From Buttiauxella warmboldiae (lineage in GTDB: Bacteria; Pseudomonadota; Gammaproteobacteria; Enterobacterales; Enterobacteriaceae), in the NCBI RefSeq assembly GCF_003818135.1, contig NZ_RPOH01000116.1, positions 1 to 37,455 of the forward strand: 37,455 bases of DNA, in the 5' to 3' direction. This document shows, one piece after another, positions 17,019 through 34,162 of the stretch; the first letter of the stretch is position 1; every line of letters begins with the position of its first letter. The translations under genes and the position numbers were made by a program. The notes below the pieces were generated by a model. The model did no database searches and had not been told where the DNA came from. It was given only the letters and a program-made list of their open reading frames with translations.

Positions 17019-18458
17019 TTACACCTGCAAATAGACCATCTGCGTCTGCAGATACTCGTTCAGACCATGACGCCCGTCGGCGCCGCCAATTCCTGATTTG
17101 CGCCAGCCCGCATGGAAGCCCTGCATCGCCTCAAAGTTTTCCCGGTTGATGTAGGTTTCACCAAATTTCAGCCCTTTGATGGCTTTCATGGCGGTGTTTA
17201 AATCACGGGTATAGACCGACGATGTCAGGCCATAGTCGCTGTCGTTCGCCATTTCCAGCGCTTGCTCCAGCGTTTCAAACGTCGTGACAGGCAGCACGGG
17301 ACCAAAGGTTTCGTCGTGCATAATCGCCATTTCCTGACGCACATCCACCAGCAGCGTCGGCGGGTAGAAATACCCTTTTCCTTCCGGCGCTTTGCCGCCC
17401 AATACCACACGTGCGCCTTCGCTTACCGCATGAGCGACTTTCTGCTCCACGCGCTCAAGTGCGGCGGCGTTAATCAACGGTCCCATCGACACATCGTTAC
17501 GCTCGCCCGTATCGCCAAAGCTCACCTGTTTAAAGGCTTCGCTCAGGCGAGTAATAAATTCGTCGTAAATGCCTTTTTGCACATACACACGTTCCGCGCA
17601 GTTGCACACCTGCCCGGTGTTAATCATGCGCGAGTCGACAATCGCTTTTACCGCGATATCCAGGTCGGCGTCTTCCATCACGATAGCGGGCGCTTTACCA
17701 CCCAGTTCGAGGCAAACTTTGGTGATGTTTTTAGCCGCAGCGGCCATGATTTTCTCGCCCGCGCCAACGCTGCCCGTCATGCTGACCATCGCCACTTTCG
17801 GGTTGCCCGCCAGCTCCTGGCCAACCGTTTCGCCGCGCCCCAGCACCAGGTTAAACACCCCTTTTGGTAACCCGATATCATGAACAATTTCTGCAAAAGC
17901 GATGGCGTTATTCGGGGTAAATTCGCTTGGTTTGATGACGATAGTATTGCCGGTGATTAGCGCTGGCGCGAGTTTGCGGGCAATCAGGAAGAACGGGAAG
18001 TTCCACGGCAAAATCCCGGTTGTCACGCCTAATGCACGTTTGAATACCAGAATATTTTCACCCGGACGGTCGCTTTGCAGGATTTCGCCTTCGTAACGGC
18101 GCGCCCATTCAGCCATGTAATCGAGATAATCGGCGGTGAAAGCCACTTCAACTTCCGCCAGCTGTTGGGTTTTGCCGCCTTCGGCAACAATCAGGGCGCT
18201 TATTGCCTGCGCACGTTCCCGAATACCCGCAGAAATTTTACGCAGCCAGCCCGCACGCTCAATGGCGGGTAACGCTTCCCAACCGGCCTGGGCTTTTGCC
18301 GCGGCATCAATCGCATCACGCGCCTGCTGCGCGCTACCGTCAGGAATGCGCGAAATCAGCGCTTCAGTGGCAGGATTAATCACATCAATCCACTTCTCGC
18401 CCTGCCATGGAACAAATTGACCATCTATATACATCGGGTGTTGTACAGGTGCTGTCAT
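17019..18458 (-). CDS. aldA: Aldehyde dehydrogenase A (lactaldehyde/glycolaldehyde dehydrogenase)
   Basis: This 479-aa NAD-dependent enzyme oxidises L-lactaldehyde to lactate and glycolaldehyde to glycolate. Length and sequence match E. coli AldA throughout. The catalytic Glu is in CLELGGKAP (about 251) and the catalytic Cys in GQVCNCAERV (about 285); the substrate and NAD region includes GILPWNFPFF (about 148-157). AAGGAG lies before the ATG. In E. coli aldA is directly downstream of ydcF; here the same relative orientation is kept but a sugar cassette of about 10 kb lies between them. It is CRP- and ArcA-responsive in E. coli, and a CRP-like site is visible upstream here. Confidence 0.98.
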   Translation of the reverse strand: MTAPVQHPMYIDGQFVPWQGEKWIDVINPATEALISRIPDGSAQQARDAIDAAAKAQAGWEALPAIERAGWLRKISAGIRERAQAISALIVAEGGKTQQLAEVEVAFTADYLDYMAEWARRYEGEILQSDRPGENILVFKRALGVTTGILPWNFPFFLIARKLAPALITGNTIVIKPSEFTPNNAIAFAEIVHDIGLPKGVFNLVLGRGETVGQELAGNPKVAMVSMTGSVGAGEKIMAAAAKNITKVCLELGGKAPAIVMEDADLDIAVKAIVDSRMINTGQVCNCAERVYVQKGIYDEFITRLSEAFKQVSFGDTGERNDVSMGPLINAAALERVEQKVAHAVSEGARVVLGGKAPEGKGYFYPPTLLVDVRQEMAIMHDETFGPVLPVTTFETLEQALEMANDSDYGLTSSVYTRDLNTAMKAIKGLKFGETYINRENFEAMQGFHAGWRKSGIGGADGRHGLNEYLQTQMVYLQV

Positions 18459-18664: not shown

Positions 18665-19609
18665 TTACAGCAGCTGGCTGGCCGTTGGAAAATCCGTGAT
18701 CAGGACGTCAATGTATCCCCCCAGCAGCGCCCCGCGAATGGCATTGGCTTTGTCGTTGCCCCCCGCCAGCGCCACCACATGCGGGCAAGCACGAACCTGG
18801 CTTAGCTCCATGCCGATAACCGGATCTTCTTCTGTGCTCAGAACCGGCTCCCCCCGGGCATTAAAATAATGCAGGCAGATATCCCCAACCGCACCGCGTT
18901 CGGCCAGCGTTTTAAGCATCGCTTCGCCGTAATAGTTACCCGAATTTTTCAGCAGTTGAGAAGGTTCAAGATCGCCGATACCGAGAATTGCCATATCCAC
19001 TTCGGCAAATTTGTTCACCACTTCGGCAACATCATCGCTGGCCACCAGTCTTGCCCGTTCTTCAACGGAATGTTCAATACTTTGAGAAGGTAACAACCAG
19101 GCCGGGCAACCAAGCTGTGCGGCCAGGTTTTGCGTCAGAATCGTCGCCTGCACGTTGCCATTGGGCCCCACGCCGCCCAGCAGTTGAATCACGCCACGCG
19201 CTTTTATGCTTTGGGGATGCAGTTCATCAACCATGGCGCGAATGGTTGTACTCCAGGAGGAGATACCCACAAGATCGTTTGGTCGTAACCGCGTTTCAAC
19301 GTAATGCGCCGCTGCACTACCAATCGCATGTTTGATTTGCATAGCCGCTGCGGATTCGTCAACATCCACCACAATCGCCTGGCGAATGCCGTACTTTTTC
19401 TCCAGCGCCTGCTCAAGAGAGAGAAAAATATTGGCGGGCTGAATCACGCTGATTTTTACCACCCCCTCTTTCTGGCAGCGGGTAATGGCACGCGATACAA
19501 ATGACTGTGACAGCTGCAATAGCCCGGCGATTTCTGACTGCTTCATCCCTTCAACAAAATAGAGTGTCGCAATCTTGACCAACAAACGTTGTTCATCCTG
19601 CTTTGACAT
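18665..19609 (-). CDS. SorC/DeoR-type sugar-responsive regulator
   Basis: This 314-aa protein has an N-terminal helix-turn-helix (about 18-56: MKQSEIAGLLQLSQSFVSRA then ITRCQKEGVVKISV) and a C-terminal SorC-type sugar-phosphate-binding domain (about 60-312), including GVGPNG and VALAGGNDKANAI. The start MSKQDEQ has AGGAGG upstream and gives the usual family length; the open frame runs 43 codons further without a site. It is divergent from the sugar ABC/transketolase operon across 210 bp that contain several palindromes, so it most likely controls that operon and itself, with a pathway sugar phosphate as effector. Whether it represses or activates is not visible. Confidence 0.9.
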   Translation of the reverse strand: MSKQDEQRLLVKIATLYFVEGMKQSEIAGLLQLSQSFVSRAITRCQKEGVVKISVIQPANIFLSLEQALEKKYGIRQAIVVDVDESAAAMQIKHAIGSAAAHYVETRLRPNDLVGISSWSTTIRAMVDELHPQSIKARGVIQLLGGVGPNGNVQATILTQNLAAQLGCPAWLLPSQSIEHSVEERARLVASDDVAEVVNKFAEVDMAILGIGDLEPSQLLKNSGNYYGEAMLKTLAERGAVGDICLHYFNARGEPVLSTEEDPVIGMELSQVRACPHVVALAGGNDKANAIRGALLGGYIDVLITDFPTASQLL

Positions 19610-19637
19610 AAGCGCCTCCTGATTTCCTTTCTGTATT

Positions 19638-19657
19638 TTTATGCAAGCCTGCATAAA
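19638..19657. promoter_or_regulatory. Candidate operator upstream of the SorC-type gene
   Basis: TTTATGCA and TGCATAAA are perfect 8-bp arms with a 4-nt spacer, 29-48 bp upstream of the regulator start codon. The position suits autoregulation. Confidence 0.5.
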
Positions 19658-19725
19658 TAACAAGGCAGCTTTCCTTTTGCCGCTTAACTGTACAATTTGT
19701 GATCGCATCCGCCTTTTTATGATTT

Positions 19726-19748
19726 TTCTGTCCTCCACATGGACAGAA
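19726..19748. promoter_or_regulatory. Inverted repeat in the divergent control region
   Basis: TTCTGTCC and GGACAGAA are perfect 8-bp arms around a 7-nt spacer, midway between the regulator and the binding-protein gene. Its sequence differs from the AT-rich palindromes beside it, so a second protein or an RNA stem is possible. Confidence 0.4.
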
Positions 19749-19769
19749 CCATCGGTGGGGCATATCGTT

Positions 19770-20761
<992 letters not shown>

Positions 20762-20774
20762 TCCAGGAGGCTGT

Positions 20775-21377
20775 ATGTCGCTCAAACAATGGGGTATTGG
20801 CTGGTTATGTTGCAGTGCCCTGTTGCTCACTGCCTGCCGGGTGGTGGATCTGGATGAAAACGGGCAACCGATTATTCCGCCAGACCCGAATGCGAAAGCA
20901 AGTTTCGCAAACCAGACACCCGCGCAGATAGCGCAACAAACCTGGAACAGCAAAGTACTGACTCCCGCGCAGAGCCATGCACTGGATAGTACGACCCTGA
21001 AAACCCGCGCCGCCAACGCCAACAACGAAAGCGTATTCGTCAAAGTACAAGGCAAAGTCGATAGCGTTTCCCTGGATAACGAACGCGAACGCACGTTGAC
21101 CGTGACCGTCAATGACCAACCGCTGCAGGTGCAGATCGGGCCGATGATCCGCGGCAATGCGATTCGTGATGCAACGGGTTACAAATTTGCGGATTTCACT
21201 AATCAGGTGCAGTTTGCGCAGCTGTCAAAAGCTTATAACCGCGAAGCAGCAAAACACCTGCCGAAAGTGGATGAAAGCTGGCAGCAGCAACCGGTCACCG
21301 TGGTGATGGCCGTCACCATGCGCAACGGCACACTGAGTGATGCAGCAGCCATTTCACTGGAACGGGGGCAACCATAA
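20775..21377 (+). CDS. DUF2291 lipoprotein
   Basis: This 200-aa protein has a lipoprotein signal with lipobox LLTAC (Cys20), then RVVDLDENGQPIIPPDPNA, which is characteristic of DUF2291. The rest has no recognised domain; a conserved NQTPAQIAQQTW block lies near residues 47-58. Members are repeatedly found beside ribose-type ABC sugar importers, but no role is established. It sits between the binding-protein gene (14-bp gap with AGGAGG) and the ATPase gene (1-bp TAATG overlap), so it is translationally tied to the transporter. An anchoring, docking or sugar-presentation role at the membrane is an inference. Confidence 0.88.
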   Translation: MSLKQWGIGWLCCSALLLTACRVVDLDENGQPIIPPDPNAKASFANQTPAQIAQQTWNSKVLTPAQSHALDSTTLKTRAANANNESVFVKVQGKVDSVSLDNERERTLTVTVNDQPLQVQIGPMIRGNAIRDATGYKFADFTNQVQFAQLSKAYNREAAKHLPKVDESWQQQPVTVVMAVTMRNGTLSDAAAISLERGQP

Positions 21378-22894
21378 TGTCGCAAGATCCTATTATTCTG
21401 CGCACCCGCAGCATTTCGATGCTGTTTCCCGGCACCGTGGCGCTGGACAACATTGATTACAACGTCTGGCGCGGCAAAGTGAACGTGATTATTGGCGAGA
21501 ACGGCGCGGGAAAATCAACGTTAATGAAAATCCTGGCGGGCGTGCAGCAGCCGAGCCTGGGTGAAATCGAACTGAACGGTGAAGTCGTTGCGTTCAACAG
21601 CACGCGCCAGGCGGCAGCTCATGGGATCGGCATGGTTCACCAGGAACTGAACCTGTTTGAAAACCTGACGGTGGCTGAAAACATTTTTCTCGGGCGCGAA
21701 TTGCAACACGGTTTATCCCCTATTGATGAAGCCACACAGCAGGCGCGTAGTGCTGAATTGCTCAAACGCCTGGACCAGCCTATTTCGCCAAAAGAGCTGG
21801 TCGCCAATCTCAAAGTTGGTCAGCAACAGCTGGTGGAAATTGCCAAAGCGCTGGCTGAAAACGCCGATATTTTAATTCTTGATGAACCCACTTCGGCGCT
21901 CAGTAAAACCGAAGTGGAAATCCTGTTCCGGGTGATTCGTGAACTCACCCGCCAGGGCGTCACCATTATTTATATTTCCCACCGCCTCGAAGAGTTAATG
22001 GCGATTGGCGACGTGATAACCATTTTGCGCGATGGCAAATTTCAGGCCGAAGCTCAGGTGTGTGATATCGACGTACCGTGGATCGTGCGTGAAATGCTCG
22101 GCAGCGAACCGGTATCCAGCTTCCTGAAACCGGGGCGTAAATTTGGAGCCGCGATTCTTGAAGCCGAGCACATCACCTGTGTCAACGCGGCGGGAAATAC
22201 CGTGGTCGATGACGTAAGTTTCCAGGTGCGCGCCGGGGAAATTGTCGGTATTTACGGGTTGATGGGGGCCGGACGCACCGAACTGTTTGAGTGCCTGCTG
22301 GGCACCCAGCGCAGCTATCTGGGCAAGTTATGGCTCGACAGTAAGCCGGTGCCGCCACGGCTGGCGACGGCTGAACGCATCCGCATGGGCATGAGTCTGG
22401 TGCCGGAAGATCGCAAACGCACCGGAATATTTCCGATATCGTCGGTTGCCAGCAACTTAACGATTGCCAGTTTATGGCGGCGTTTGCAGCGTGGCTTTGC
22501 CATTTCACAGGTCGATGAAACGGCGGTTGTGGCCAGCACCATTGGCAATCTGTCGATAAAAGTGTCTTCACCGGATGTTGAAATTCAGGCGCTGAGTGGC
22601 GGGAACCAGCAAAAAGTGGTGATTGGCCGCTCGCTGCTCACCAACCCGAAACTCCTGCTGCTGGATGAACCAACGCGCGGCATTGATGTGGGCGCCAAAG
22701 CTGACGTGTTTCGCATGATGGTTCAGCTCTCCGAACAGGGTATTGCCGTGGTGTTTTCCACTTCCGATCTGAAAGAGATCATGGCGGTTTCCGACCGCAT
22801 TCTGGTGATGTCCGGCGGAAAAATCACCGCCGATATTCCCCGCGAACAGGCCGAAGAATCGGCATTGGTTTCCGCTAGTGCACAAGGGTTCTGA
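21377..22894 (+). CDS. Sugar ABC importer ATPase, RbsA/MglA type
   Basis: This 505-aa protein has two fused ABC domains. Domain 1 has Walker A GENGAGKST (about 40-48), signature region LKVGQQQLVEIAKAL and Walker B LILDEPTSALS. Domain 2 has the degenerate Walker A GLMGAGRTEL, signature LSGGNQQKV and Walker B LLLDEPTRGIDVG. This asymmetry is normal for carbohydrate-uptake family 2 ATPases. It energises uptake through the permease encoded next and overlaps the DUF2291 gene by 1 bp. Confidence 0.95.
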   Translation: MSQDPIILRTRSISMLFPGTVALDNIDYNVWRGKVNVIIGENGAGKSTLMKILAGVQQPSLGEIELNGEVVAFNSTRQAAAHGIGMVHQELNLFENLTVAENIFLGRELQHGLSPIDEATQQARSAELLKRLDQPISPKELVANLKVGQQQLVEIAKALAENADILILDEPTSALSKTEVEILFRVIRELTRQGVTIIYISHRLEELMAIGDVITILRDGKFQAEAQVCDIDVPWIVREMLGSEPVSSFLKPGRKFGAAILEAEHITCVNAAGNTVVDDVSFQVRAGEIVGIYGLMGAGRTELFECLLGTQRSYLGKLWLDSKPVPPRLATAERIRMGMSLVPEDRKRTGIFPISSVASNLTIASLWRRLQRGFAISQVDETAVVASTIGNLSIKVSSPDVEIQALSGGNQQKVVIGRSLLTNPKLLLLDEPTRGIDVGAKADVFRMMVQLSEQGIAVVFSTSDLKEIMAVSDRILVMSGGKITADIPREQAEESALVSASAQGF

Positions 22895-22895
22895 T

Positions 22896-23996
22896 ATGAA
22901 AATGAATGATACTGTCGCGCTCAACGCCAGACCAGGCTCGCCGTTCAGCTCGCGGGAAAATCTGCTGCTGTTACTGCTCAAGCTGCGCACCTTTATTGCG
23001 CTGTTTTTGATTGTCGGTTTCTTCGCCATCATGGTGCCGAACTTCCTCGCCATGGGCAGTATGGTGATCATGATTAAACACATCGCTATCAACGCCTTCC
23101 TGGCGCTCGGCATTACCTTTGTCATCATCACCGCCGGTATCGATCTCTCGATCGGCGCAACGCTTGGATTGTGCGGCATGATTGCCGGCTGGCTGATCAC
23201 CAAAGGCATTGTGCTGCCGATGTTCGGCATCGCTATTTTTCCGAGCGTCTGGGTGATTGTGCCGCTGGTTTTGTTGATTGGCGGGCTGATTGGCGCAACC
23301 AACGGCTGGATTATTACCCGCTATAACGTCGCACCGTTTATCTGCACGCTGGGCACTATGTACGTACTGCGCGGCGCGGCGATGTTGACCTCAGGTGGCG
23401 AAACTTTCCCGGGTCTGTCCGGCAACCCGCAGCTTGGCAACACCGGTTTTGATTTGATTGGCTCCGGCACGCTGTTCGGCATTCCCTGGGCAATCTGGAT
23501 GATGATCGTGCTGGCGCTGGCGATTGCCTATGTCGCCCGCCGCCTGCCTTTTGGCCGCCATGTCTATGCGATTGGCGATAACGAACGCGCGGCTGAACTT
23601 TCCGGGGTAAAAGTCCGTCAGGTCAAAATTTGGGTCTATACCCTTTCGGGGCTCTGCGCCGCCATCGCTGGGATTGTGGTTTCCGCGCAGTTGGTTGCCA
23701 GCCATCCAGCAAACGGTACGGCATTTGAGATGAACGCTATCGCAGCGGTAGTGCTTGGCGGTACTTCGCTTGCCGGTGGGCGCGGCACCATTCTCGGCAC
23801 CCTGGTCGGCGCTTTTGTGATTGGTTTCCTGGCCGATGGCTTAGTGATGATGGGCGTGAGCGAATTCTGGCAAATGGTCATCAAGGGAATCGTGATTATC
23901 GTGGCGGTTATCATCGATCAGATGCAGAACCGCATGCAGCAGAAAGCCGCGGTCGTGGCACAAAAAGCGCTGATGGAAAGCAGCGGGAAAGTGTAG
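22896..23996 (+). CDS. Sugar ABC importer permease, RbsC type
   Basis: This 366-aa inner-membrane protein of the BPD_transp_2 family has about ten hydrophobic segments and the family blocks FVIITAGIDLSIGA, GATNGWIITRYNVAPFI and AVVLGGTSLAGGRGTILGT. It starts one base after the ATPase stop codon; ATG at 22896 is preferred over the GTG at 22878, which lies inside the ATPase gene. A single permease gene suggests a homodimer, as in the ribose importer. The downstream gap carries a hairpin that separates the transport and catabolic parts of the operon. Confidence 0.95.
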   Translation: MKMNDTVALNARPGSPFSSRENLLLLLLKLRTFIALFLIVGFFAIMVPNFLAMGSMVIMIKHIAINAFLALGITFVIITAGIDLSIGATLGLCGMIAGWLITKGIVLPMFGIAIFPSVWVIVPLVLLIGGLIGATNGWIITRYNVAPFICTLGTMYVLRGAAMLTSGGETFPGLSGNPQLGNTGFDLIGSGTLFGIPWAIWMMIVLALAIAYVARRLPFGRHVYAIGDNERAAELSGVKVRQVKIWVYTLSGLCAAIAGIVVSAQLVASHPANGTAFEMNAIAAVVLGGTSLAGGRGTILGTLVGAFVIGFLADGLVMMGVSEFWQMVIKGIVIIVAVIIDQMQNRMQQKAAVVAQKALMESSGKV

Positions 23997-24016
23997 CCCG
24001 TCACAAATTCTGAACG

Positions 24017-24036
24017 GCGGGTATTTTTTTACCCGC
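24017..24036 (+). terminator. Intra-operon hairpin between transporter and enzymes
   Basis: GCGGGTA and TACCCGC form a perfect 7-bp stem with a T6 loop. It begins 20 bp after the permease stop. No T-run follows the stem, so partial termination or mRNA stabilisation is more likely than full termination. Confidence 0.45.
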
Positions 24037-24039
24037 ATG

Positions 24040-24051
24040 GAATAATTATTC
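24040..24051 (+). promoter_or_regulatory. Palindrome upstream of the transketolase genes
   Basis: GAATAATTATTC is a perfect 12-bp palindrome, similar in layout to the GAATATATATTC core of the operator before the binding-protein gene. It is 31 bp upstream of the transketolase start and may mark a second operator or promoter. Confidence 0.4.
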
Positions 24052-24082
24052 ATCTATGATTTTTAATGCATGAGGTAACGCT

Positions 24083-24913
24083 ATGAATCCGTTCGCCCTG
24101 TCAGTTACGGATCTGGAAAAGAGAGCGCGCGCCGTCCGTCGCCGCATCGTCCTGCTCAATGCCCACAGCCCGGCTGGCGGCCATACCGGGGCTGATCTAT
24201 CGCAGGTAGAAATCTTGACCGCCCTGTACTTCCGGATACTGAATTGTTCGCCGCAGCTGATTAACAGCGATGAACGTGACATCTACATTCAGTCTAAAGG
24301 CCATGCGGTAGGCGGTTATTACTGTGTGCTGGCTGAAGCCGGGTTTATTCCCGTGGAGTGGCTGCCGACTTATCAGCATGCCGACTCTCACCTGCCCGGC
24401 CACCCGGTGAAACACAAAACGCCGGGTGTTGAACTGAATACAGGTGCGCTCGGTCACGGCCTGCCGGTCGCCGTTGGCATCGCGCTGGCGGCCAAACGCA
24501 ACAACAGCCAGCGCCGCGTCTTTGTGGTGACCGGCGATGGCGAACTGGCTGAGGGTAGCAACTGGGAAGCGGCGCTGGTCGCGGCGCATTACCAGCTCGA
24601 TAACCTGATCATCATTAACGACAAAAACAATCTACAGCTCGCGGGCTCGACCAAAGAGATCCTCAATACCGACCCGCTGGATGAGAAATGGCGCGCGTTC
24701 GGCATGGAAGTGACCGAGTGCCGTGGCAACGACATGGCTGATGTGGTCGCCACAATTGAAGGACTACAGCCACAGGGCAAACCGCATGTGGTGATTGCCA
24801 ATACCACTAAAGGCGCGGGCATCTCCTTTATTCAGGGACGCGCCGAATGGCACCACCGGATCCCAAAAGGTGACGAAATCGAACTGGCGCTGGAGGAACT
24901 GAAAGATGAGTAA
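24083..24913 (+). CDS. Transketolase N-terminal subunit (candidate AptA)
   Basis: This 276-aa protein corresponds to the thiamine-diphosphate-binding N-terminal third of transketolase. The SPAGGHTGADLS block (about 29-40), SKGHAVGGYY (about 71-80) and the cofactor motif GDGELAEG (151-158) with Asn in INDKNN (about 179-184) are visible. GAGGT precedes the ATG. It overlaps the gene of the second subunit by 8 bp, so the two form one split enzyme. In the D-apiose route, AptA/AptB transfer a two-carbon unit from apulose 4-phosphate to glyceraldehyde 3-phosphate, giving dihydroxyacetone phosphate and xylulose 5-phosphate. The kinase and isomerase genes following support this, though sequence alone cannot fix the substrate. 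Confidence 0.92.
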   Translation: MNPFALSVTDLEKRARAVRRRIVLLNAHSPAGGHTGADLSQVEILTALYFRILNCSPQLINSDERDIYIQSKGHAVGGYYCVLAEAGFIPVEWLPTYQHADSHLPGHPVKHKTPGVELNTGALGHGLPVAVGIALAAKRNNSQRRVFVVTGDGELAEGSNWEAALVAAHYQLDNLIIINDKNNLQLAGSTKEILNTDPLDEKWRAFGMEVTECRGNDMADVVATIEGLQPQGKPHVVIANTTKGAGISFIQGRAEWHHRIPKGDEIELALEELKDE

Positions 24914-25850
24914 TAGCGAACATCTGGCCACCGTAATGGTGAATGCCTTTATTGACGCCGTCGACCGCGGCATAGACCTGGTGCCGGTGGTGGCAGACTC
25001 AACCTCTACGGCAAAAATCGCCCCGTTCATAAAGCAATTTCCGGACAGGTTGGTGAACGTCGGTATTGCCGAACAAACTCTGGTCGGTACGGCAGTGGGC
25101 CTGTCAATGGGCGGGAAAATCGCCGTCACCTGCAACGCGGCACCGTTTTTGATTTCGCGCGCCAACGAACAGATCAAAGTCGACGTTTGCTACAACAACA
25201 GCAACGTAAAATTGTTTGGCCTGAATGCCGGAGCCAGTTATGGCCCGCTCGCCAGCACCCACCACAGCATTGACGACATCGCCGTGCTGCGCGGTTTTGG
25301 CAACATTGAAATCTATGCGCCATCGTGCCCGATTGAATGCCGCCAGATTATTGACTACGCGCTGGAACACGTTGGTCCGGTTTACATTCGTCTTGACGGC
25401 AAAGCACTGCCAGAACTGCACGACGCAGATTATCAGTTCAAACCAGGTGCCATTAATCAGCTGCGCGAAGGGGAAGATGTGGCGCTGGTGGCAATGGGTT
25501 CAACGGTGCATGAAGCTGTCACGGCGGCGGCTCAACTCGCGGACTTGGGTATTAATGCGGCGGTGATCAACGTTCCGTCTATCCGCCCTTGCGATACGGC
25601 ACAGCTTCTCAGCATGCTTAAAAAATCACGCAGCGTGATAACCGTTGAAGAGCACAACGTGAATGGTGGTGTCGGCAGCCTGGTCGCTGAAGTGTTAGCG
25701 GAAGCCGGATGCGGTATTCCGCTGTTGCGGCTCGGAATTGCAGACGGTAGCTATGCTATTGCGGCGGATCGCAAGGAGATGCGTGCTCATCATGGAATTG
25801 ACGCCGCAGGAGTCACACGTTCCGCCACGGCGCTTTGCAAAGGAGCATAG
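24906..25850 (+). CDS. Transketolase C-terminal subunit (candidate AptB)
   Basis: This 314-aa protein supplies the pyrimidine-binding and C-terminal transketolase domains. The catalytic Glu is in VNVGIAEQT (Glu56). The substrate-binding block reads SYGPLASTHHSIDD (about 112-125), and VEEHNVNGGVGSLVAE (about 249-264) is in the C-terminal domain. It overlaps the first subunit by 8 bp and is followed within 2 bp by the kinase gene. Split transketolases are common in dedicated sugar pathways, unlike the single-chain housekeeping TktA. D-apulose 4-phosphate is the inferred donor. Confidence 0.92.
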   Translation: MSNSEHLATVMVNAFIDAVDRGIDLVPVVADSTSTAKIAPFIKQFPDRLVNVGIAEQTLVGTAVGLSMGGKIAVTCNAAPFLISRANEQIKVDVCYNNSNVKLFGLNAGASYGPLASTHHSIDDIAVLRGFGNIEIYAPSCPIECRQIIDYALEHVGPVYIRLDGKALPELHDADYQFKPGAINQLREGEDVALVAMGSTVHEAVTAAAQLADLGINAAVINVPSIRPCDTAQLLSMLKKSRSVITVEEHNVNGGVGSLVAEVLAEAGCGIPLLRLGIADGSYAIAADRKEMRAHHGIDAAGVTRSATALCKGA

Positions 25851-25852
25851 CC

Positions 25853-27343
25853 ATGTCCAGCCCGGTAATTCTGGCTATTGATGAGGGCACCACTAACGCC
25901 AAAGTGGTGGCGGTGAATAGTAACGGGGAAATCTGCACCCGTTACAGTCTCGGCGTGGCAATGACGCACCCGGCACCAGGGCTTGCAGAACAAGACCCCG
26001 TTGCGCTGTGGCATGCCGTGTGTGAAGCATTGAGCGGCTGCCTGCAACAACTCGGCTCCGTCACCGTCGCGGGCGTTACGATAAGCAACCAGCGTGAGTC
26101 AGTGTTGGTGTGGCAGCGCAATAACGGTCAACCGCTAACACCCGTTGTGAGCTGGCAAGATCGCCGTTCAGAACAAACTTGCGAGCAACTGTTAATGCGG
26201 GGCCATGGCGAACTCATCACTCGCCTGACTGGCCTGCCCGTCGATCCCTTATTCCCGGCGGCGAAAATCCGCGCCCTGCTCGATGCTATTCCGGACGGCA
26301 TGAAACGTGCCGAAGCGGGTGAACTGTGCATCGGGACCATCGATAGCTGGCTGAACTGGCAGCTAACCGCCGGGCATTCCTTTACCACGGATTATTCCAA
26401 CGCCGCCCGCACCCAGCTGTTTAATATTTACCGGGGCGAATGGGACGACGAATTACTCAAATTATTCGGCATTCCACGGGCGGCTCTGGCGGAAGTGCGC
26501 CCTTCCGCCTGTCATCACGGCGAAGTACAAATCAACACCATTGCCGGTTTGCCCATTGGCACGCCAGTGCTGGCACTTATCGGTGACTCACACGCGGCAC
26601 TCTACGCGCAGCGCAGCGTCTGTGGCCACGTGGTGAAAGCCACTTATGGTACCGGATCGTCATTGATGCTTTCGATCCCAGAACCGGTTAACCGCAGCAC
26701 TCGTCTGAGCACTACGCTTGCCTGGCATGACGGCGAGCTGAACTACGCGCTGGAGGGTAACATTACCCATACCGGTTCCGGTAGTGCCTGGCTTGGGAAC
26801 ATGCTGGGCATCAGCGATCCGGTAAAACTCACCGAGCTTGCGCAATCTACCGCCACCAACCAGGGGGTCTATTACGTGCCCGCACTTTCTGGCCTCGGTG
26901 CGCCGTGGTGGGATTTACATGCCCGCGGCATGATTTGCGGCCTGACGGATGCCGCGACTCCAGCCGTGCTGGCGCGAGCCGCGCTGGAATCGCAGGTCTA
27001 CCAGATTGCCGATGTCTTTTTCGCGATGGAGCAGGCAACCGGCGAGCGCCTCGAATCACTGTGTGTTGACGGCACGGCCACCCGAAACCGCTGGTTAATG
27101 CAGCTACAGGCTGACGTATTACAACGCCCGTTAATTATCCAACCGGCGGCGGAAATCTCCGCACTCGGCGCAACGCTGTTAGCCGGAAAAACTCTCGGCT
27201 GGTGGCAGGACGGCACACCTCTTGCGGCGCTGTCCAACTGCGGCGAGCGCTTAATGCCTCAAACAGAACAACAAAAACTCATGCAGCACAATTATAAACA
27301 ATGGCTTGAAGCGGTAGCACGTTGCCGCTTTCAGCCAAATTAA
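25853..27343 (+). CDS. FGGY-family carbohydrate kinase (candidate apulose kinase)
   Basis: This 496-aa kinase has the two-domain FGGY layout. Visible motifs are the phosphate-1 loop AIDEGTTNAKVV (about 7-18), SWQDRR (about 95-100) in the sugar site, GDSHAALYA with the likely catalytic Asp (about 245), YGTGSSLML (phosphate 2) and the C-terminal GTATRNRW and SALGATLLAG blocks. The start has AAAGGAG upstream and lies 2 bp after the transketolase stop; the frame to 25835 is inside the preceding gene. It resembles glycerol and xylulose kinases, but its place between a split transketolase and an isomerase favours phosphorylation of a ketose such as D-apulose. Confidence 0.92.
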   Translation: MSSPVILAIDEGTTNAKVVAVNSNGEICTRYSLGVAMTHPAPGLAEQDPVALWHAVCEALSGCLQQLGSVTVAGVTISNQRESVLVWQRNNGQPLTPVVSWQDRRSEQTCEQLLMRGHGELITRLTGLPVDPLFPAAKIRALLDAIPDGMKRAEAGELCIGTIDSWLNWQLTAGHSFTTDYSNAARTQLFNIYRGEWDDELLKLFGIPRAALAEVRPSACHHGEVQINTIAGLPIGTPVLALIGDSHAALYAQRSVCGHVVKATYGTGSSLMLSIPEPVNRSTRLSTTLAWHDGELNYALEGNITHTGSGSAWLGNMLGISDPVKLTELAQSTATNQGVYYVPALSGLGAPWWDLHARGMICGLTDAATPAVLARAALESQVYQIADVFFAMEQATGERLESLCVDGTATRNRWLMQLQADVLQRPLIIQPAAEISALGATLLAGKTLGWWQDGTPLAALSNCGERLMPQTEQQKLMQHNYKQWLEAVARCRFQPN

Positions 27344-27367
27344 ATCTATTTTGAGCGGAGTGAAGCT

Positions 27368-28786
27368 ATGTCCAGAATCCCAAAACAACTCACCTTCGGG
27401 GTGATCATCGGCAATCGCGGTTTTTTCCCAAGTTACTTAGTGGCGCAGGCGCACGAACAAGCCGAAGCCCTGTTTAACAAATTGGGTATTAATACCGTGA
27501 TGCTCAACGATGGGGAAACCCATCTTGGCGGCGTGGAAACCCGTCAGGACGCCAAAGTGTGCGCCGGGCTATTCCGTCAATATCGTGATGAAATTCATGG
27601 CATTGTGGTATTGCTTCCCAATTTTGGCGACGAAAAAGCGGTGGCCGAGGCGATTCGCCTGTCTGGCCTGAATGTGCCGGTACTAATCCAGGCCGAAGAA
27701 GATAACCTCGACAAAATGGGCCTGGCGACGCGCCGCGACAGCTTCTGTGGCAAAATTTCCCTGTGCAACAACCTGCGCCAGTACAACATCCCCTTCACGC
27801 TCACCACGCAGCATGTTTGCGCGTTAAGCGGTGAAGTGTTCGAACAAGATTTACAGCGCTTCGCGCAAATCTGCCGGGTGGTGAAATCGATGCAGGGCGT
27901 GCGTATCGGGGCAATTGGTGCACGCCCGGCCAGCTTTAACACCGTGCGTTACAGCGAAAAACTGCTCGAAAAAATGGGCGTGGCGGTGGAAACCCTCGAC
28001 CTTTCGGAGATCTTCACCCGTATTAAACACATCAGCGACGGCGACCTGCGGGTGCAGGAAAAACGCGGCATCTTAATTGAAAACGCCGATGCCAGCGGCA
28101 TTCCCGCCGATAAGTTAACTCAGATGGCAAAACTGTTTGTGGTGATCAGCGAATGGGTAGTGGCAAACGACATCGACACCACCGCTATTCAGTGCTGGAC
28201 CTCGCTTCAGGAAAACCTCGGCATTAACGTTTGCTCGATTATGAGCGTAATGTCCGGGCAGCTGATGCCGAGCGCCTGTGAAGTCGACGTGATGGGCGCA
28301 TTATCGATGTATGCCCTCGCCAGCGCGTCGCTTAACCCGGCCTCAATTGCCGACTGGAACAATAACTTCGGCGACGATCGTAATAAATGCGTGCTGTTCC
28401 ACTGCGGGAACTTTGCCAGCAGTAGCCTGGAATCCCCGTCGATGGGCACCGCCGATATTATCGGCACGACGGTCGGCAAAGAGAACACCTGCGGCGCAGT
28501 ACATGGTCGTCTGAAAAGCGGCCCGCTGACCTACTTCCGCCTGTCGTCTGATGATTTTACCGGTGAGGTGAAAGCCTATGTCGGCGAGGGGCAATCCGTT
28601 GATGATGCGTTAGATACCGTCGGCTGCCGTGCGGTCATAGAAGTGCCGCATCTGGAGAATTTACTGGCGTGGATTTGTAACAATGGCTTTGAGCACCACG
28701 TCGCCATGAACCATTCGGCGACGGGTGCGGTGTTGCAGGAAGCATTCAGCAAATATTTAGGCGTGAGCTGCTACCTGCATCGCTAA
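27368..28786 (+). CDS. L-fucose/L-arabinose-isomerase-fold sugar isomerase (candidate D-apiose isomerase)
   Basis: This 472-aa protein has the fold of L-fucose isomerase-like enzymes, which interconvert aldoses and ketoses using a divalent metal. Probable metal ligands are Glu305 (PSACEVD), Asp329 (IADWNNN) and His449 (AMNHSATG), in the order and spacing seen in FucI. It is shorter than FucI (about 590 aa) because the N-terminal substrate domain is reduced. It is the last gene of the operon, 24 bp after the kinase, and convergent with ydcF (6-bp gap). Isomerase, then kinase, then transketolase matches the D-apiose route, where the isomerase makes D-apulose. Another branched or four- to five-carbon aldose remains possible. 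Confidence 0.88.
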   Translation: MSRIPKQLTFGVIIGNRGFFPSYLVAQAHEQAEALFNKLGINTVMLNDGETHLGGVETRQDAKVCAGLFRQYRDEIHGIVVLLPNFGDEKAVAEAIRLSGLNVPVLIQAEEDNLDKMGLATRRDSFCGKISLCNNLRQYNIPFTLTTQHVCALSGEVFEQDLQRFAQICRVVKSMQGVRIGAIGARPASFNTVRYSEKLLEKMGVAVETLDLSEIFTRIKHISDGDLRVQEKRGILIENADASGIPADKLTQMAKLFVVISEWVVANDIDTTAIQCWTSLQENLGINVCSIMSVMSGQLMPSACEVDVMGALSMYALASASLNPASIADWNNNFGDDRNKCVLFHCGNFASSSLESPSMGTADIIGTTVGKENTCGAVHGRLKSGPLTYFRLSSDDFTGEVKAYVGEGQSVDDALDTVGCRAVIEVPHLENLLAWICNNGFEHHVAMNHSATGAVLQEAFSKYLGVSCYLHR

Positions 28787-28792
28787 CGGTAT

Positions 28793-29593
28793 TTACAAGC
28801 CGCGCTCGCGCATCAACTGCGCCAGCGCGGCGTCATTAACGAGAATTTCCCAGGCGCCGATCGCCGCAGGCGGAATATCGACGTGAGCAATAAAATCGCG
28901 CCCTTGCGGCCCGTAGCCTTGAGCATCATCGCGCAGACGTGGAATTTCCCCCAGCAGCAACGAAATATAACGCGCCACCGGCCACAGCCCCTTTTCATGG
29001 GGAGTGAATGTCGTCCGGGCCTCATCGCTTGCCAGCACGGGCACAAATCCCGGCCAGCTACGCCATTGCACAGAGTGAGTCTCACCCTGCCAAACCCGCT
29101 CAAAAGTGGCAACGGTGCGGCGCTGCATGGTTGGATCCTGAATAATAATGGCTCGTTCCGGCGTGATACCCAGCGCTTGTATTAACCCGTGGGTAAAGCG
29201 TGCATTTTCTCCGCAGTTCGTCGACTTCTCTTCCGTCAACACCTTCTCGTGCGGGATCTTCCAGAACTGCGTCGCTATATCTTTGATGATGGCCGCTTCC
29301 GCGCGCCCCGTGGTGGGAATGGCGTTATAGCGCGGATGTTTAGCAATGGCGGCGTATAAAAACGTGGTGGAGTGGCCGATACCGCCGGTAATCAACAGCG
29401 GCCGTTCGGTATTAGCAGCAAGCTGGCATGCCGCGTCAATGGTGGGGATAACGGCGTTGCCTGCGAGAATAATCATGTCTGCGTCAGACGCCGCTGGCGG
29501 CGCGGCAAACTCATGATATGAGAGCCACTCGCCAAGCGTGTTGATGGCATTAATCGTGGTGGCCTGCAAAGCTGGAAATGCTGTCGTCAACAT
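28793..29593 (-). CDS. ydcF: YdcF, DUF218 protein
   Basis: This 266-aa cytoplasmic protein has a DUF218 domain with the motifs LAGNAVIPTIDAA, ITGGIGHSTTFL (about 69-80), STNCGENARF (about 124-133) and IIIQDPTMQRRT. E. coli YdcF has the same length and binds S-adenosylmethionine; its reaction is unknown. AGGAGG precedes the ATG. In E. coli it is immediately upstream of aldA; here it is separated from aldA by the whole isomerase-to-regulator cassette. The upstream sugar-hydrolase operon ends 69 bp before it on the same strand without a clear terminator, so read-through is possible. Confidence 0.95.
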   Translation of the reverse strand: MLTTAFPALQATTINAINTLGEWLSYHEFAAPPAASDADMIILAGNAVIPTIDAACQLAANTERPLLITGGIGHSTTFLYAAIAKHPRYNAIPTTGRAEAAIIKDIATQFWKIPHEKVLTEEKSTNCGENARFTHGLIQALGITPERAIIIQDPTMQRRTVATFERVWQGETHSVQWRSWPGFVPVLASDEARTTFTPHEKGLWPVARYISLLLGEIPRLRDDAQGYGPQGRDFIAHVDIPPAAIGAWEILVNDAALAQLMRERGL

Positions 29594-29661: not shown

Positions 29662-31311
29662 TTAGAGCTTATAAACTCGTGCCTCCCACGCATGGAGGCG
29701 GTAAGTTTCCTCCACCGGTGCGTAATTCCCCAGCACAAACCGTGCCCCGTCGAGCGAAAGTTCAGCCTCGGACCAGCGAGCAGATTTTGACGACATATTG
29801 CACAGTACGACAAATTCCACTCCTTCCAGCATCCGGCTGTAGGCATAAATTTGCGAGTGTCCTTCCAGTTCCAGCACGTAACGACCATAAATCAACGTCC
29901 GTTCCTGGCGGCGTAGCTGAATCAATGCACGATAAAAATTCAGCACCGAATCCGGGTCCTGCTGCTGGCTGGCCACGTTGATCATCTCGTAGTTGGCGTT
30001 AACCTTAAACCAGGGTTTGGCATCGCTAAAACCGGCATTCGGCCAGGCGTTCCACTGCATCGGAGTGCGGGAGTTATCGCGCCCGGTGTTAGTGAGAAAG
30101 GCGATAATTTCCTCTTCGCTTTTGCCCTGTTCCGCCATTTCGCGCCACATATTTTTCGCTGACACATCATCAAAATCTTCAAGCCCCTCGAAACGGGTAT
30201 TGGTCATACCAATTTCCTGGCCCTGATAGATAAACGGCGTGCCCTGCATCAGGAAATAGAGGGCTGCGATGCAGGTGGCGCTCTCACGCCAGTAGTGTTC
30301 GGTATCACCCCAGCGTGAAGTAATGCGCGTGAGATCGTGGTTTTCTACATACAACGCGTTCCAGCCTTTGCCTTCCAGCGCTTCCTGCCAGGCGGTAAAT
30401 ATTCTCTTCAGTGCCGCAGGTTCCGGGCGTAAACCCGCTTCCGGTTCCCATAAACGAACGTGTTCAAACTGAAACACCATATTCAGCCGTCCACGATGCT
30501 CCCCCACCCACTCCTCAGCGTTTTCTGCATACAGGCCATTCATTTCACCAACGGTGACAATATCGTAATGCTGTAAAACGTTGCGGCTCATATCGTCGAC
30601 GTAATCCAGCAGCCCGTCATAGTTAAGGTGGCTTTTCATCGCAGGGGCGTAGCGTAATTTATCAGGGTTAGGAACATCATCCAGCAGCGGCTCTTTTTTC
30701 AGGTGCGCGATGGCATCGATGCGGAAACCATCAATACCTTTGTCGAGCCACCAGCGCATCATGTCGTACACCGCGCGGCGCACATCGTGGTTTTCCCAGT
30801 TGAGGTCCGGCTGGCGGCGGGTAAATAAGTGCAGATAATATTGCTGTGTTTGCGGGTCAAATTCCCATGCCGAGCCTTTAAAAATGCCTTCCCAGTTGTT
30901 CGGTTCTGCCCCATTTTTGCTATCACGCCAGATGTACCAGCCACGTTTCGGGTTATTGCGCGACGAACGGGATTCCAGAAACCACGGGTGTTCATCAGAG
31001 GTATGGTTCACCACCAGGTCAATAATCAGCCGCATTCCACGGGCATGAACTTGTTCAAGAAGGCGATCAAAATCCGCCATCGAGCCAAATTCAGCCATGA
31101 TTTCCTGATAATCGCTGATATCGTAGCCGTTATCGTCATTCGGCGATTTGTACATCGGGCAGATCCAAATTAAATCGATGCCGAGATCTTTGAGGTAATC
31201 GAGTTTTTCGCTGATGCCGTTGAGATCGCCTATACCGTCACCGTTGCTGTCCTTAAAACTACGCGGATAAATCTGGTAGGCTACCGCCTCTTTCCACCAG
31301 TTTGCCATCAT
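29662..31311 (-). CDS. GH13 alpha-glucosidase, Ala-type (trehalulose/isomaltulose hydrolase-like)
   Basis: This 549-aa cytoplasmic GH13 enzyme has an (alpha/beta)8 barrel and a small C-terminal beta domain. Catalytic residues are the nucleophile Asp199 (GFRIDAIAH), acid/base Glu256 (TVGEMNG) and Asp326 (VENHD); the Ca/Mg site DSNGDGIGD is at 21-29. After the nucleophile the residue is Ala200, where oligo-1,6-glucosidases carry Val; this favours alpha-1,4 or broader specificity. It starts directly after the stop of the other GH13 gene (TAAATG), with GGGAGG as ribosome-binding site. It resembles the second hydrolase (PalZ-like) of the E. rhapontici palatinose operon. Confidence 0.88.
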   Translation of the reverse strand: MMANWWKEAVAYQIYPRSFKDSNGDGIGDLNGISEKLDYLKDLGIDLIWICPMYKSPNDDNGYDISDYQEIMAEFGSMADFDRLLEQVHARGMRLIIDLVVNHTSDEHPWFLESRSSRNNPKRGWYIWRDSKNGAEPNNWEGIFKGSAWEFDPQTQQYYLHLFTRRQPDLNWENHDVRRAVYDMMRWWLDKGIDGFRIDAIAHLKKEPLLDDVPNPDKLRYAPAMKSHLNYDGLLDYVDDMSRNVLQHYDIVTVGEMNGLYAENAEEWVGEHRGRLNMVFQFEHVRLWEPEAGLRPEPAALKRIFTAWQEALEGKGWNALYVENHDLTRITSRWGDTEHYWRESATCIAALYFLMQGTPFIYQGQEIGMTNTRFEGLEDFDDVSAKNMWREMAEQGKSEEEIIAFLTNTGRDNSRTPMQWNAWPNAGFSDAKPWFKVNANYEMINVASQQQDPDSVLNFYRALIQLRRQERTLIYGRYVLELEGHSQIYAYSRMLEGVEFVVLCNMSSKSARWSEAELSLDGARFVLGNYAPVEETYRLHAWEARVYKL

Positions 31312-32952
31312 TTACCTCCCGATTAATAATGCAAAGGATTCATAAGGTTGTAGCTCAAGACTGACCGCCAATTGGTCACGTGGGGCATAGTTGCTAATCA
31401 GACATTCGCCGTGCCAGTTCTGCATCGTTTGCGGAATATCAAGCGTGAGATGTTCGCGCGTGAAGTTGTTTATCACCACCAGGCGCTCATCACCCAGCGT
31501 GCGTAGCCAGGCGAATACCTGCGGATGCTCAGCCAGCACCGGTTCAAAATCGCCATACACCAGCACCGGATACTGTTTGCGCAAGGCGATGAGCTTTTGG
31601 TAATGCCAGAGAATCGAATCCGGCTGCTCGAGCGCCGCCGCAACGTTAATTTCATGGTAGTTTGGGTTTACCGCAATCCACGGCGTTCCTTTGGTAAAAC
31701 CGGCGGATGGGCTGTTGTCCCACTGCATCGGCGTGCGGGCGTTGTCTCGCCCGTTAGCATGGATCCCCAGCATCATCTCTTCATGGCTCATTCCTCCGGC
31801 GAGCCGTTCCTGATAAAGATTCAGACTTTCGATATCCCGGTATTCGCCGATCTGCGCGAAGCGAACATTCGTCATGCCGATCTCTTCACCCTGATAGATA
31901 TACGGCGTGCCTTTCAGGCAGTGCAGCGCGGTGGCAAGCATTTTGGCCGACGGTTCGCGAAACTCTCCTTCATCGCCAAATTTCGATACCGCACGAGGCA
32001 GATCGTGATTGCTCCAGAACAGCGAATTCCAGCCCTGATGCGCCAGCGCGGTTTGCCATTTCTCGATAACCGCCTTAAAGCTCGCCAGCTTAAAAGGCTG
32101 GCTGCGCCATTTCCCTGCCTGTTCATCCCAGAACTGCTTGATATGGTCGAACTGGAAAACCATCGACAGCTCTTCACGTTCGGCCGCGCTGTAGAGCAGC
32201 GCATCTTCCGGCGTCGCGCTCCAGGTTTCGCCTACGGTGACATAATCCCCGTGTCCAAAAGTGGCGCGGTTCATCTGGCGTATCAAGGCATGCAGATGTT
32301 TGCCGTTCGCCATGATCTGCGCATCCACCTGTTTGCCGATAAGATCGATTACGTCCATACGAAAGCCGCCGATACCTTTGCCCAGCCAGCGGTTCATCAT
32401 GGCGTGGACCTCCTGCTGGACGCGTGGATTTTCCCAGTTGAGATCCGGCTGGCGCTTCGAAAACTGATGCAGATAGTATTCACCGCTGGCGTCATCAAAA
32501 GCCCAGCCGCTGCCGCCAAAATACGAGCGGAAATCGTTCGGCGGGCCGCCGTCTGCGGACGGTTTACGCCAGATATAAAAATCACGATAAGGGTTATCTT
32601 TTGATTTCAGCGCTTCAATAAACCAGGGGTGTTCGTCAGAAGTGTGGTTAACCACTAAATCCATCAGGATATGAATGTTACGCCGTTTTGCCTGCGCAAT
32701 CAGAGCGTCCATATCCGCCAGGGTGCCAAATTCAGCGGCGATATCTTCATAGTCGGAGATATCGTATCCGTTGTCATCCATCGGCGAGCGGTAAACTGGC
32801 GAGAGCCAAATCAGGTTGATGCCAAGCTGTTGCAGGTAGTCGAGTTTGCTGATAATACCGGGGATGTCGCCGATACCATCACCGTTGCTGTCCATAAAAC
32901 TGCGCGGATAGATTTGGTACACCACCGCATTGTGCCACCATTTTTTTTCCAC
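31312..32952 (-). CDS. GH13 alpha-glucosidase, Val-type (oligo-1,6-glucosidase/palatinase-like)
   Basis: This 546-aa GH13 enzyme has nucleophile Asp200 (GFRMDVID), acid/base Glu242 (TVGETWS) and Asp317 (WSNHD); the metal-binding DSNGDGIGD is at 22-30. Val201 after the nucleophile is the residue that favours alpha-1,6 bonds in oligo-1,6-glucosidases, so isomaltose or isomaltulose are likely substrates. The RLDRD-type product-specificity motif of isomaltulose synthases was not seen, so it is taken as a hydrolase. The start is GTG with AAGGAG at good spacing. It is separated from the ATPase gene by about 90 bp that contain a dispersed repeat. Confidence 0.88.
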   Translation of the reverse strand: MEKKWWHNAVVYQIYPRSFMDSNGDGIGDIPGIISKLDYLQQLGINLIWLSPVYRSPMDDNGYDISDYEDIAAEFGTLADMDALIAQAKRRNIHILMDLVVNHTSDEHPWFIEALKSKDNPYRDFYIWRKPSADGGPPNDFRSYFGGSGWAFDDASGEYYLHQFSKRQPDLNWENPRVQQEVHAMMNRWLGKGIGGFRMDVIDLIGKQVDAQIMANGKHLHALIRQMNRATFGHGDYVTVGETWSATPEDALLYSAAEREELSMVFQFDHIKQFWDEQAGKWRSQPFKLASFKAVIEKWQTALAHQGWNSLFWSNHDLPRAVSKFGDEGEFREPSAKMLATALHCLKGTPYIYQGEEIGMTNVRFAQIGEYRDIESLNLYQERLAGGMSHEEMMLGIHANGRDNARTPMQWDNSPSAGFTKGTPWIAVNPNYHEINVAAALEQPDSILWHYQKLIALRKQYPVLVYGDFEPVLAEHPQVFAWLRTLGDERLVVINNFTREHLTLDIPQTMQNWHGECLISNYAPRDQLAVSLELQPYESFALLIGR

Positions 32953-32976
32953 TGATTTCTCCTTAAAGAATTTACC

Positions 32977-33068
32977 ACTCCCCCTTATCCTCCTCCCAAA
33001 GGAGCGAGGGGACAGGATCGCATCGGTCTTCTCCTTCTCCCTCAGGGAGAGGCCGGGATTAAGGGTGA
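32977..33068. repeat. Dispersed GC-rich extragenic repeat
   Basis: Two pyrimidine/purine-rich parts flank an inner ACAGGATCGCATCGGT segment: CCCTTATCCTCCTCCCAAAG then GAGCGAGGGG on one side and TCTCCCTCAGGGAGAGG with GGGATTAAGGGTG on the other. The outer ends can pair imperfectly. It shares CTCCCTCAGGGA with the copy after ldhA and resembles extragenic elements common in Enterobacter-like genomes. It overlaps the last codons of the ATPase gene. Confidence 0.6.
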
Positions 33069-34160: not shown

Positions 34161-34162
34161 GG

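Follow-up and report, generated by a model that had tools for sequence, protein, structure and literature searches.

What sugar is used by the nine-gene cassette at positions 18665-28786 of a 37,455-nucleotide stretch of Buttiauxella warmboldiae DNA (assembly GCF_003818135.1, contig NZ_RPOH01000116.1, positions 1 to 37,455; hereafter the window), and which enzyme opens its pathway? The branched sugar apiose occurs in plant cell walls, and its breakdown through apulose and apulose 4-phosphate is established chemistry. A previous reading of the sequence alone had assigned the cassette to D-apiose or a close branched-sugar relative. Our analysis bears out this assignment through the orthology of the binding protein, of the split transketolase AptA/AptB (AptAB) and of the regulator, together with a kinase signature, a shared palindrome and the co-occurrence of the genes among genomes. 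We propose that the cassette is very probably a regulated operon for the uptake and non-oxidative catabolism of D-apiose, in which a non-orthologous isomerase takes the place of ApsI. D-apiose as the substrate is well supported, and we strongly infer that the arabinose/fucose-fold protein is a second D-apiose isomerase. The pathway is a known one with an unusual first enzyme, and the cassette is a variant rather than a copy of the cassette already described.

In the proposed mechanism, a ribose-type ATP-binding cassette (ABC) transporter would import D-apiose, the protein with the arabinose/fucose-isomerase fold would convert it to D-apulose in place of ApsI, which has a triose-phosphate isomerase (TIM) barrel, and a glycerol-kinase-like FGGY kinase would phosphorylate D-apulose to D-apulose 4-phosphate. 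AptAB would then pass a two-carbon unit on to an aldose phosphate, and dihydroxyacetone phosphate would remain. Control would fall to a SorC/DeoR-type repressor at two palindromes, one before the transporter genes and one before aptA; this repressor probably senses a phosphorylated intermediate that is common to all variants of the cluster.

We examined the isomerase by both sequence and structure. It gave no phmmer match in the PDB, and the best E-value of a profile search was 0.06, so that the fold was settled by structure comparison. The structural model (pLDDT 89.7) gave L-arabinose isomerase as its best Foldseek match (E 2.7e-24, TM-score 0.81/0.78), followed by D-arabinose and L-fucose isomerases. 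All 41 matches with E <=0.001 were arabinose or fucose isomerases, at 12-14% identity, and the match of the fold spanned the full length of the protein (TM-score 0.73-0.83 by query length). Six residues (E305, D307, D329, H345, H443 and H444) were invariant in 16 isomerase sequences, including relatives with only 26-29% identity, and may correspond to the acid-acid-histidine metal site known from these enzymes. The closest named relatives are six Buttiauxella loci with 97% identity, and relatives with 53-54% identity stand with aptAB, the kinase and the transporter in Larkinella and a Phycisphaerae bacterium.

Next, we considered which enzyme fills the same slot in related clusters. Among 392 genomes sampled from the family, relatives of AptA were found in 100, with at least 75% identity in 83 (two of them fragments) and 40-50% identity in 17. 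All four AptA-positive genomes of one genus, g52, carry the order binding protein, DUF2291, ATPase, permease, aptA, aptB, kinase, a 335-amino-acid TIM-barrel protein (PF01261) and regulator. The polygalacturonase of one of these genomes (G157) is nearly identical to PDB entry 1bhe, a Pectobacterium protein, and for this reason we took g52 to be Pectobacterium. The TIM-barrel protein is taken to be ApsI from its place in the cluster. Although the sequence-only reading had equated the window isomerase with ApsI by role, this equation does not extend to homology, as no similarity was detectable between the isomerase and the TIM-barrel protein found in presumed Pectobacterium (E = 0.12). In addition, there was no ApsI-family relative in the genome of the window at E 1e-80. 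Yersinia has the same gene order as g52 but carries the isomerase of the window type (the fucose-type isomerase) in the slot.

The two isomerases were then counted in the family genomes, with presence cut-offs of E 1e-100 for the fucose-type isomerase and E 1e-80 for ApsI. Of the 392 genomes, 48 carried the fucose-type isomerase and 12 carried ApsI, all of them among the 83 AptA-positive genomes. No genome carried both, against 6.9 expected among the 83 (hypergeometric p 8.6e-6), and both were associated with aptA (p 2.6e-39 for the isomerase and 4.2e-9 for ApsI), although these p-values ignore phylogeny. Within the stretches fetched, both dehydrogenases of the Escherichia coli-type cluster were found in 20 of the 23 AptA-positive genomes with neither isomerase, and one of the two in another (G697); of the remaining genomes, G732 stops at a contig edge without dehydrogenases and G708 was not in the fetched set. 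The modules are not always linked. In three genomes of genus g176 (G463, G574 and G644), aptAB and the kinase belong to a dehydrogenase-type cluster, and the isomerase gene is separate from it. In ESNIH1 (L057) and Pseudescherichia vulneris (L056), the isomerase lies beside a transporter on a locus without aptAB or the kinase, and on an Erwinia plasmid the regulator and aptAB have neither a kinase nor a first-step enzyme beside them.

We also compared trees of the kinase and of AptA built from 59 loci chosen by hand. In the kinase tree the starred branches require three or more changes of the TIM label, and in the AptA tree two or more, counts that include two distant plasmid rows. Among the enterobacterial rows of the kinase tree, presumed Pectobacterium and locus L183 are placed among fucose-type rows and in separate starred groups, so that the first step was probably exchanged more than once. 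It is likely that at least three unrelated entries for apiose, namely the TIM-barrel isomerase, the dehydrogenase pair and the arabinose/fucose-fold isomerase (in 48 of the 83 genomes), feed one kinase-transketolase module with one regulator and operator, having been exchanged more than once and being sometimes unlinked from it. As a separate observation, a plasmid of Streptomyces sp. NBC_00184 (L211, 4585-19025) carries genes for an ApsI-like TIM-barrel protein, a split transketolase and an FGGY kinase, and its neighboring genes for pectinesterase, GH28, GH95 and beta-L-arabinofuranosidase point to pectic wall sugars.

The transketolase and the kinase were traced separately. As the sequence-only reading had supposed, both belong with apiose clusters: the kinase shares a starred group of 24 rows (98/90) with the four kinases of presumed Pectobacterium, and AptA and AptB are 78% and 76% identical to those of the cluster at entD in E. 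coli 4/1-1 (L014). The regulator is 73% identical to that of the E. coli 4/1-1 cluster, whereas the kinase and the binding protein are only 45% and 43% identical. At the DNA level, 629 of 5426 E. coli genomes have sequence 60-80% identical to the window; in the 15 genomes listed, it spans aptA-aptB at 72.5% identity and covers 40% of the query. A published study (PMC13001218) reports growth on D-apiose for the apiose-cluster carriers tested (E. coli STc131 and STc14, E. fergusonii and P. carotovorum) but not for K-12. According to the same study, the E. coli cluster lies downstream of the enterobactin genes with two oxidoreductases, and apsI is present in P. carotovorum, with two putative oxidoreductases instead in Escherichia (PMC13001218). 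The E. coli 4/1-1 cluster fits this position and content. Since the E. coli type has dehydrogenases and a divergent kinase and binding protein, the growth evidence transfers best to the transketolase and the regulator.

For the kinase, 131 distinct sequences from clusters of all types were compared: 128 have both GDSHAAL and YGTGSS, and the other three differ in one of these motifs. The two glycerol kinases that we aligned have GDQQAAL, with YGTGCF or YGTGSF. D-apulose is in effect a C2-substituted glycerol, which would fit a glycerol-kinase-like enzyme.

With regard to the transporter, the binding protein is 71% identical to RHE_RS26605 on plasmid p42f of Rhizobium etli, where the annotation shows genes for DUF2291, an ATPase and a permease arranged as in the cassette. 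Genes nearby match ApnL, the D-apionate lactonase (1050 bits, cut-off 750), and OiaX, the 3-oxo-isoapionate-4-phosphate decarboxylase (784 bits, cut-off 700), and a match to OiaK in this locus is under its cut-off. Because its ortholog lies close to apnL and oiaX in R. etli, the transporter family is tied to apiose by another catabolic route. Of the two PDB matches, 4ry0 is RHE_PF00037 of R. etli CFN 42, and 5ibq was reportedly solved with D-apiose. The ninth gene of the cassette, which the sequence-only reading had left unnamed, encodes a DUF2291 lipoprotein. A DUF2291 gene lies between those of the binding protein and the ATPase in most clusters with this transporter, including those of R. 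etli and E. coli, and by this comparison the lipoprotein appears to be a conserved extra part of this transporter type.

We then asked whether the clusters share a control element. Allowing one mismatch, the palindrome TTGAATATATATTCAA is present in 111 of 152 cluster loci (some genomes being represented twice and some loci partial), whereas each of three Markov controls gave 0 of 152. One cluster each from E. coli, Klebsiella and presumed Pectobacterium is among the loci that have it. Of 125 distinct regions upstream of aptA, 116 contain the pattern GAATAWWTATTC no more than 120 bp from the gene, and all cluster types are represented (dehydrogenase, 25 of 28; fucose, 79 of 83; TIM, 4 of 5; none, 8 of 9), with a rate of 0.0004 in the Markov control. 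Within the window it occurs only in the 86-bp gap before aptA and at 19793. Eight apsI genes lie outside a kinase-transketolase cluster. Seven of these are preceded, within about 200 bp, by a site with two mismatches or fewer, and the eighth comes after transporter genes; among 140 Markov copies made from seven of these upstream stretches, none had a site. Since the three first steps share only apulose and what follows it, the inducer is probably phosphorylated apulose. A scan of the whole genome of the window at up to two mismatches gave no more candidate regulon members apart from one site (contig C15 of G000, 33665-33680; L246, 7666), which precedes an aspartate/ornithine carbamoyltransferase-family gene. 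A terminator scan gave nothing above shuffled sequences. Folding of the 86-bp gap was slightly more favorable than that of shuffled copies (z -2.1), an observation from which we drew no conclusion.

This carbamoyltransferase site introduces a question concerning the regulator that would bind the palindrome. We considered that it might be an ArgR box and the operon under arginine control, since its core matches the ARG-box consensus and its only other genomic site stands before a gene of that family. Nevertheless, the palindrome accompanies aptAB and the SorC-type regulator in every type of cluster, and apsI genes outside them, and its ATTGAA-N6-TTCAAT form resembles the operator of DeoR, a member of the same regulator family. 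The arrangement differs as well, with two 14-base cores 4 bp apart before the binding-protein gene and 7 bp apart before the carbamoyltransferase gene. Arginine control therefore seems very improbable to us and is not favored over an operator of the SorC-type repressor. It is also conceivable, if unlikely, that the cassette uses another pentose or branched sugar, such as D-ribose, D-xylose or an apiose relative, with the specificity set by the isomerase. The transporter is annotated as ribose-type, 4ry0 was deposited as a ribose transporter, and the solved members of the isomerase fold, which are arabinose and fucose isomerases, are only 12-14% identical. Against this stand the location of the transporter ortholog in an apionate locus, the kinase signature, AptAB, regulator and palindrome common to the presumed Pectobacterium and E. 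coli clusters, and the alternation of the isomerase and apsI in one slot, never together in the 83 AptA-positive genomes. A sulfoquinovose pathway, with an SftI-like sulfoquinovose isomerase and an SqwGH-like sulfofructose transketolase, was suggested by the sole NCBIfam match of the isomerase (NF048012 SftI). The score of 115.8 bits is, however, far from the cut-off of 700, and the matches of the cassette enzymes include no sulfolactaldehyde, sulfoacetaldehyde or sulfoquinovosidase family. Sulfo-transketolase pathways likewise have a two-subunit transketolase, but no kinase is described for them in the available part of the source (PMC11659671). With its low score and absent pathway genes, we rejected this pathway as hardly credible.

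Several observations weigh against D-apiose use through a replaced isomerase. The name Pectobacterium is presumed from one marker protein in one of four genomes and from the organism of 1bhe, and the disregard of phylogeny in the co-occurrence tests counts here as well. The E. coli type, with its two dehydrogenases, differs not only in the first step but also in its divergent kinase and binding protein, and the dehydrogenase type coexists with the isomerase in four genomes (G463, G574, G644 and G482) and with apsI in two (G491 and G492). On the side of the transporter, the protein of 5ibq also has an entry under the name of a ribose transporter (4ry0), the Sinorhizobium meliloti ortholog (L242) has no apiose-named neighbor, and the ortholog of Rhizobium sp. 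RCAM05350 (L243) has a RuBisCO-large-subunit-family gene nearby. As for regulation, 41 of the 152 loci have no TTGAATATATATTCAA site at one mismatch, and a promoter scan found 4 promoter-like sites compared with 6.7 in shuffles. Pantoea ananatis (L115, 10001-11413) has a 72% identical isomerase apart from its aptAB cluster, with no palindrome before it. In the open literature, where Carter 2018 was outside our coverage, we found no enzyme assay for the window isomerase. Likewise, among the open-text papers searched, none joins apiose with apulose, fucose isomerase, arabinose isomerase or Buttiauxella, and a description in a subscription paper is possible.

The layout of the cassette is given in Table 1. 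All nine open reading frames (ORFs) are intact, and the families named in the sequence-only reading (SorC regulator, ribose-type importer, split transketolase, FGGY kinase and fucose-isomerase-fold isomerase) were confirmed. The tight spacing with a single 86-bp gap that it had described holds on the operon strand, but not between the regulator and the binding protein, whose probable starts (19609 and 19820) have about 210 bp of divergent promoter DNA between them. The regulator probably starts at the ATG at 19609, behind a GGAGG, rather than at the GTG at 19738. On the plus strand, the genes of the binding protein and DUF2291 are 13 bp apart, those of DUF2291 and the ATPase overlap by 1 bp, and those of the ATPase and the permease by 17 bp, provided that the GTG at 22878 is the permease start. 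The aptA and aptB genes overlap by 8 bp, the gap from aptB to the kinase is 2 bp if the ATG at 25853 is the kinase start, and that from the kinase to the isomerase is 24 bp. The 86-bp gap (23997-24082) is not empty and contains a conserved operator-like palindrome.

Table 1. Features of the cassette, with window positions, strand and supporting matches.
Feature	Position	Strand	Evidence
SorC/DeoR-type regulator	18665..19609 (ORF open to 19738)	-	PF04198 205 bits; NF053881 DeoR 185 bits, below cut-off of 420
Operator-like palindrome TTGAATATATATTCAA	19791..19806	.	Precedes binding-protein gene, between the divergent regulator and binding-protein genes
Periplasmic sugar-binding protein, ribose-type CUT2, putatively D-apiose-binding	19820..20761 (ORF open from 19787)	+	PDB 5ibq 435 bits, 4ry0 434 bits
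DUF2291 periplasmic lipoprotein, transporter companion	20775..21377	+	PF10054 99 bits
Sugar ABC transporter ATPase	21377..22894	+	PF00005 twice; best NCBIfam matches xylose/arabinose/ribose ATPases, all under cut-off
Sugar ABC transporter permease (start probably some codons further in)	22878..23996	+	PF02653 157 bits
Second, weaker operator-like palindrome TGGAATAATTATTCAT	24038..24053	.	4 mismatches to TTGAATATATATTCAA; inside 86-bp gap before aptA
AptA, N-terminal half of split transketolase, thiamine diphosphate-binding	24083..24913	+	PF00456; 6yak (split-chain transketolase) 227 bits
AptB, C-terminal half of split transketolase	24906..25850	+	PF02779 and PF02780; 6yaj 189 bits
FGGY kinase, glycerol-kinase-like, candidate D-apulose kinase	25853..27343	+	Glycerol kinase 6ude 365 bits
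Arabinose/fucose-isomerase-fold aldose isomerase, candidate D-apiose isomerase	27368..28786	+	PF02952 (L-fucose isomerase C-terminal domain) 119 bits; unrelated to ApsI

From 364 relatives found in a contig scan, we kept 80 isomerase loci, and 74 of these also hold aptA, aptB and the kinase; two of the remaining six are short contigs. The gene order in relatives of the cassette is far beyond chance. In 12 Buttiauxella genomes, the isomerase and aptA occur together in eight and are both missing in four. The cassette is flanked by aldA (17019-18458) and a ydcF-like gene (28793-29593), and in two of the four cassette-free genomes aldA immediately adjoins ydcF, which marks an empty site. The other two (L248 and L249, from G011 and G010) have no aldA inside the 1.5 kb fetched beside ydcF, and may carry different DNA at the ydcF-side site. 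Elsewhere in the window, a second uptake cassette on the minus strand (29662-37191) has two tandem treC-like GH13 enzymes and an ABC importer. The second of the GH13 pair passes the NF008183 cut-off by 95 bits and the first by about 1. A diaminobutyrate decarboxylase-like gene (under cut-off) lies beside a diaminobutyrate transaminase gene (over cut-off) at 88-2964. The BD-FAE/Abhydrolase_3-type esterase-like protein at 14835-15788 has a signal-peptide-like start, and it is a guess that it acts on plant wall esters.

These results have consequences for the annotation of such clusters. Screening with apsI as a required gene would overlook most of those seen here, as apsI is present in 12 of the 83 AptA-positive genomes. 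A protein labelled merely as 'L-fucose/L-arabinose isomerase family' gains a concrete and testable function, and the shared palindrome is a means of finding unlinked members of the regulon. If confirmed, this would be a clear example in which a non-orthologous enzyme has taken over one step of an otherwise conserved, apparently co-regulated pathway.

Finally, we compared the cassette with known systems. It has its isomerase fold in common with L-arabinose and L-fucose isomerases over the whole length, but at 12-14% identity the window isomerase is a sequence family of its own. The oxidative apiose/apionate locus of R. etli p42f resembles the cassette in its binding protein and transporter gene order. 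Unlike the cassette, it holds genes for ApnL, OiaX and an OiaK-like kinase (the last under cut-off), and its 32 kb are annotated with an RpiB/LacA-type sugar-phosphate isomerase and a triose-phosphate isomerase but with no transketolase, FGGY kinase or fucose-type isomerase. The entD-locus cluster of E. coli ST131/STc14 and Klebsiella is alike in aptA, aptB, regulator, palindrome, kinase signature, DUF2291 and CUT2 transporter, whereas two short-chain dehydrogenases replace the isomerase and the genes are split into divergent transcription units. With the non-oxidative pathway of Pectobacterium (ApsI, ApsK and AptA/AptB; MetaCyc PWY-8089), the comparison rests on presumed Pectobacterium, where the transporter, DUF2291, regulator, kinase and AptAB are orthologous. 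The presumed Pectobacterium cluster has the same gene order as the window from the binding protein to the kinase, but its regulator lies at the opposite end of the operon, and its first step is assigned to a PF01261 TIM barrel in place of the arabinose/fucose-isomerase fold of the window.

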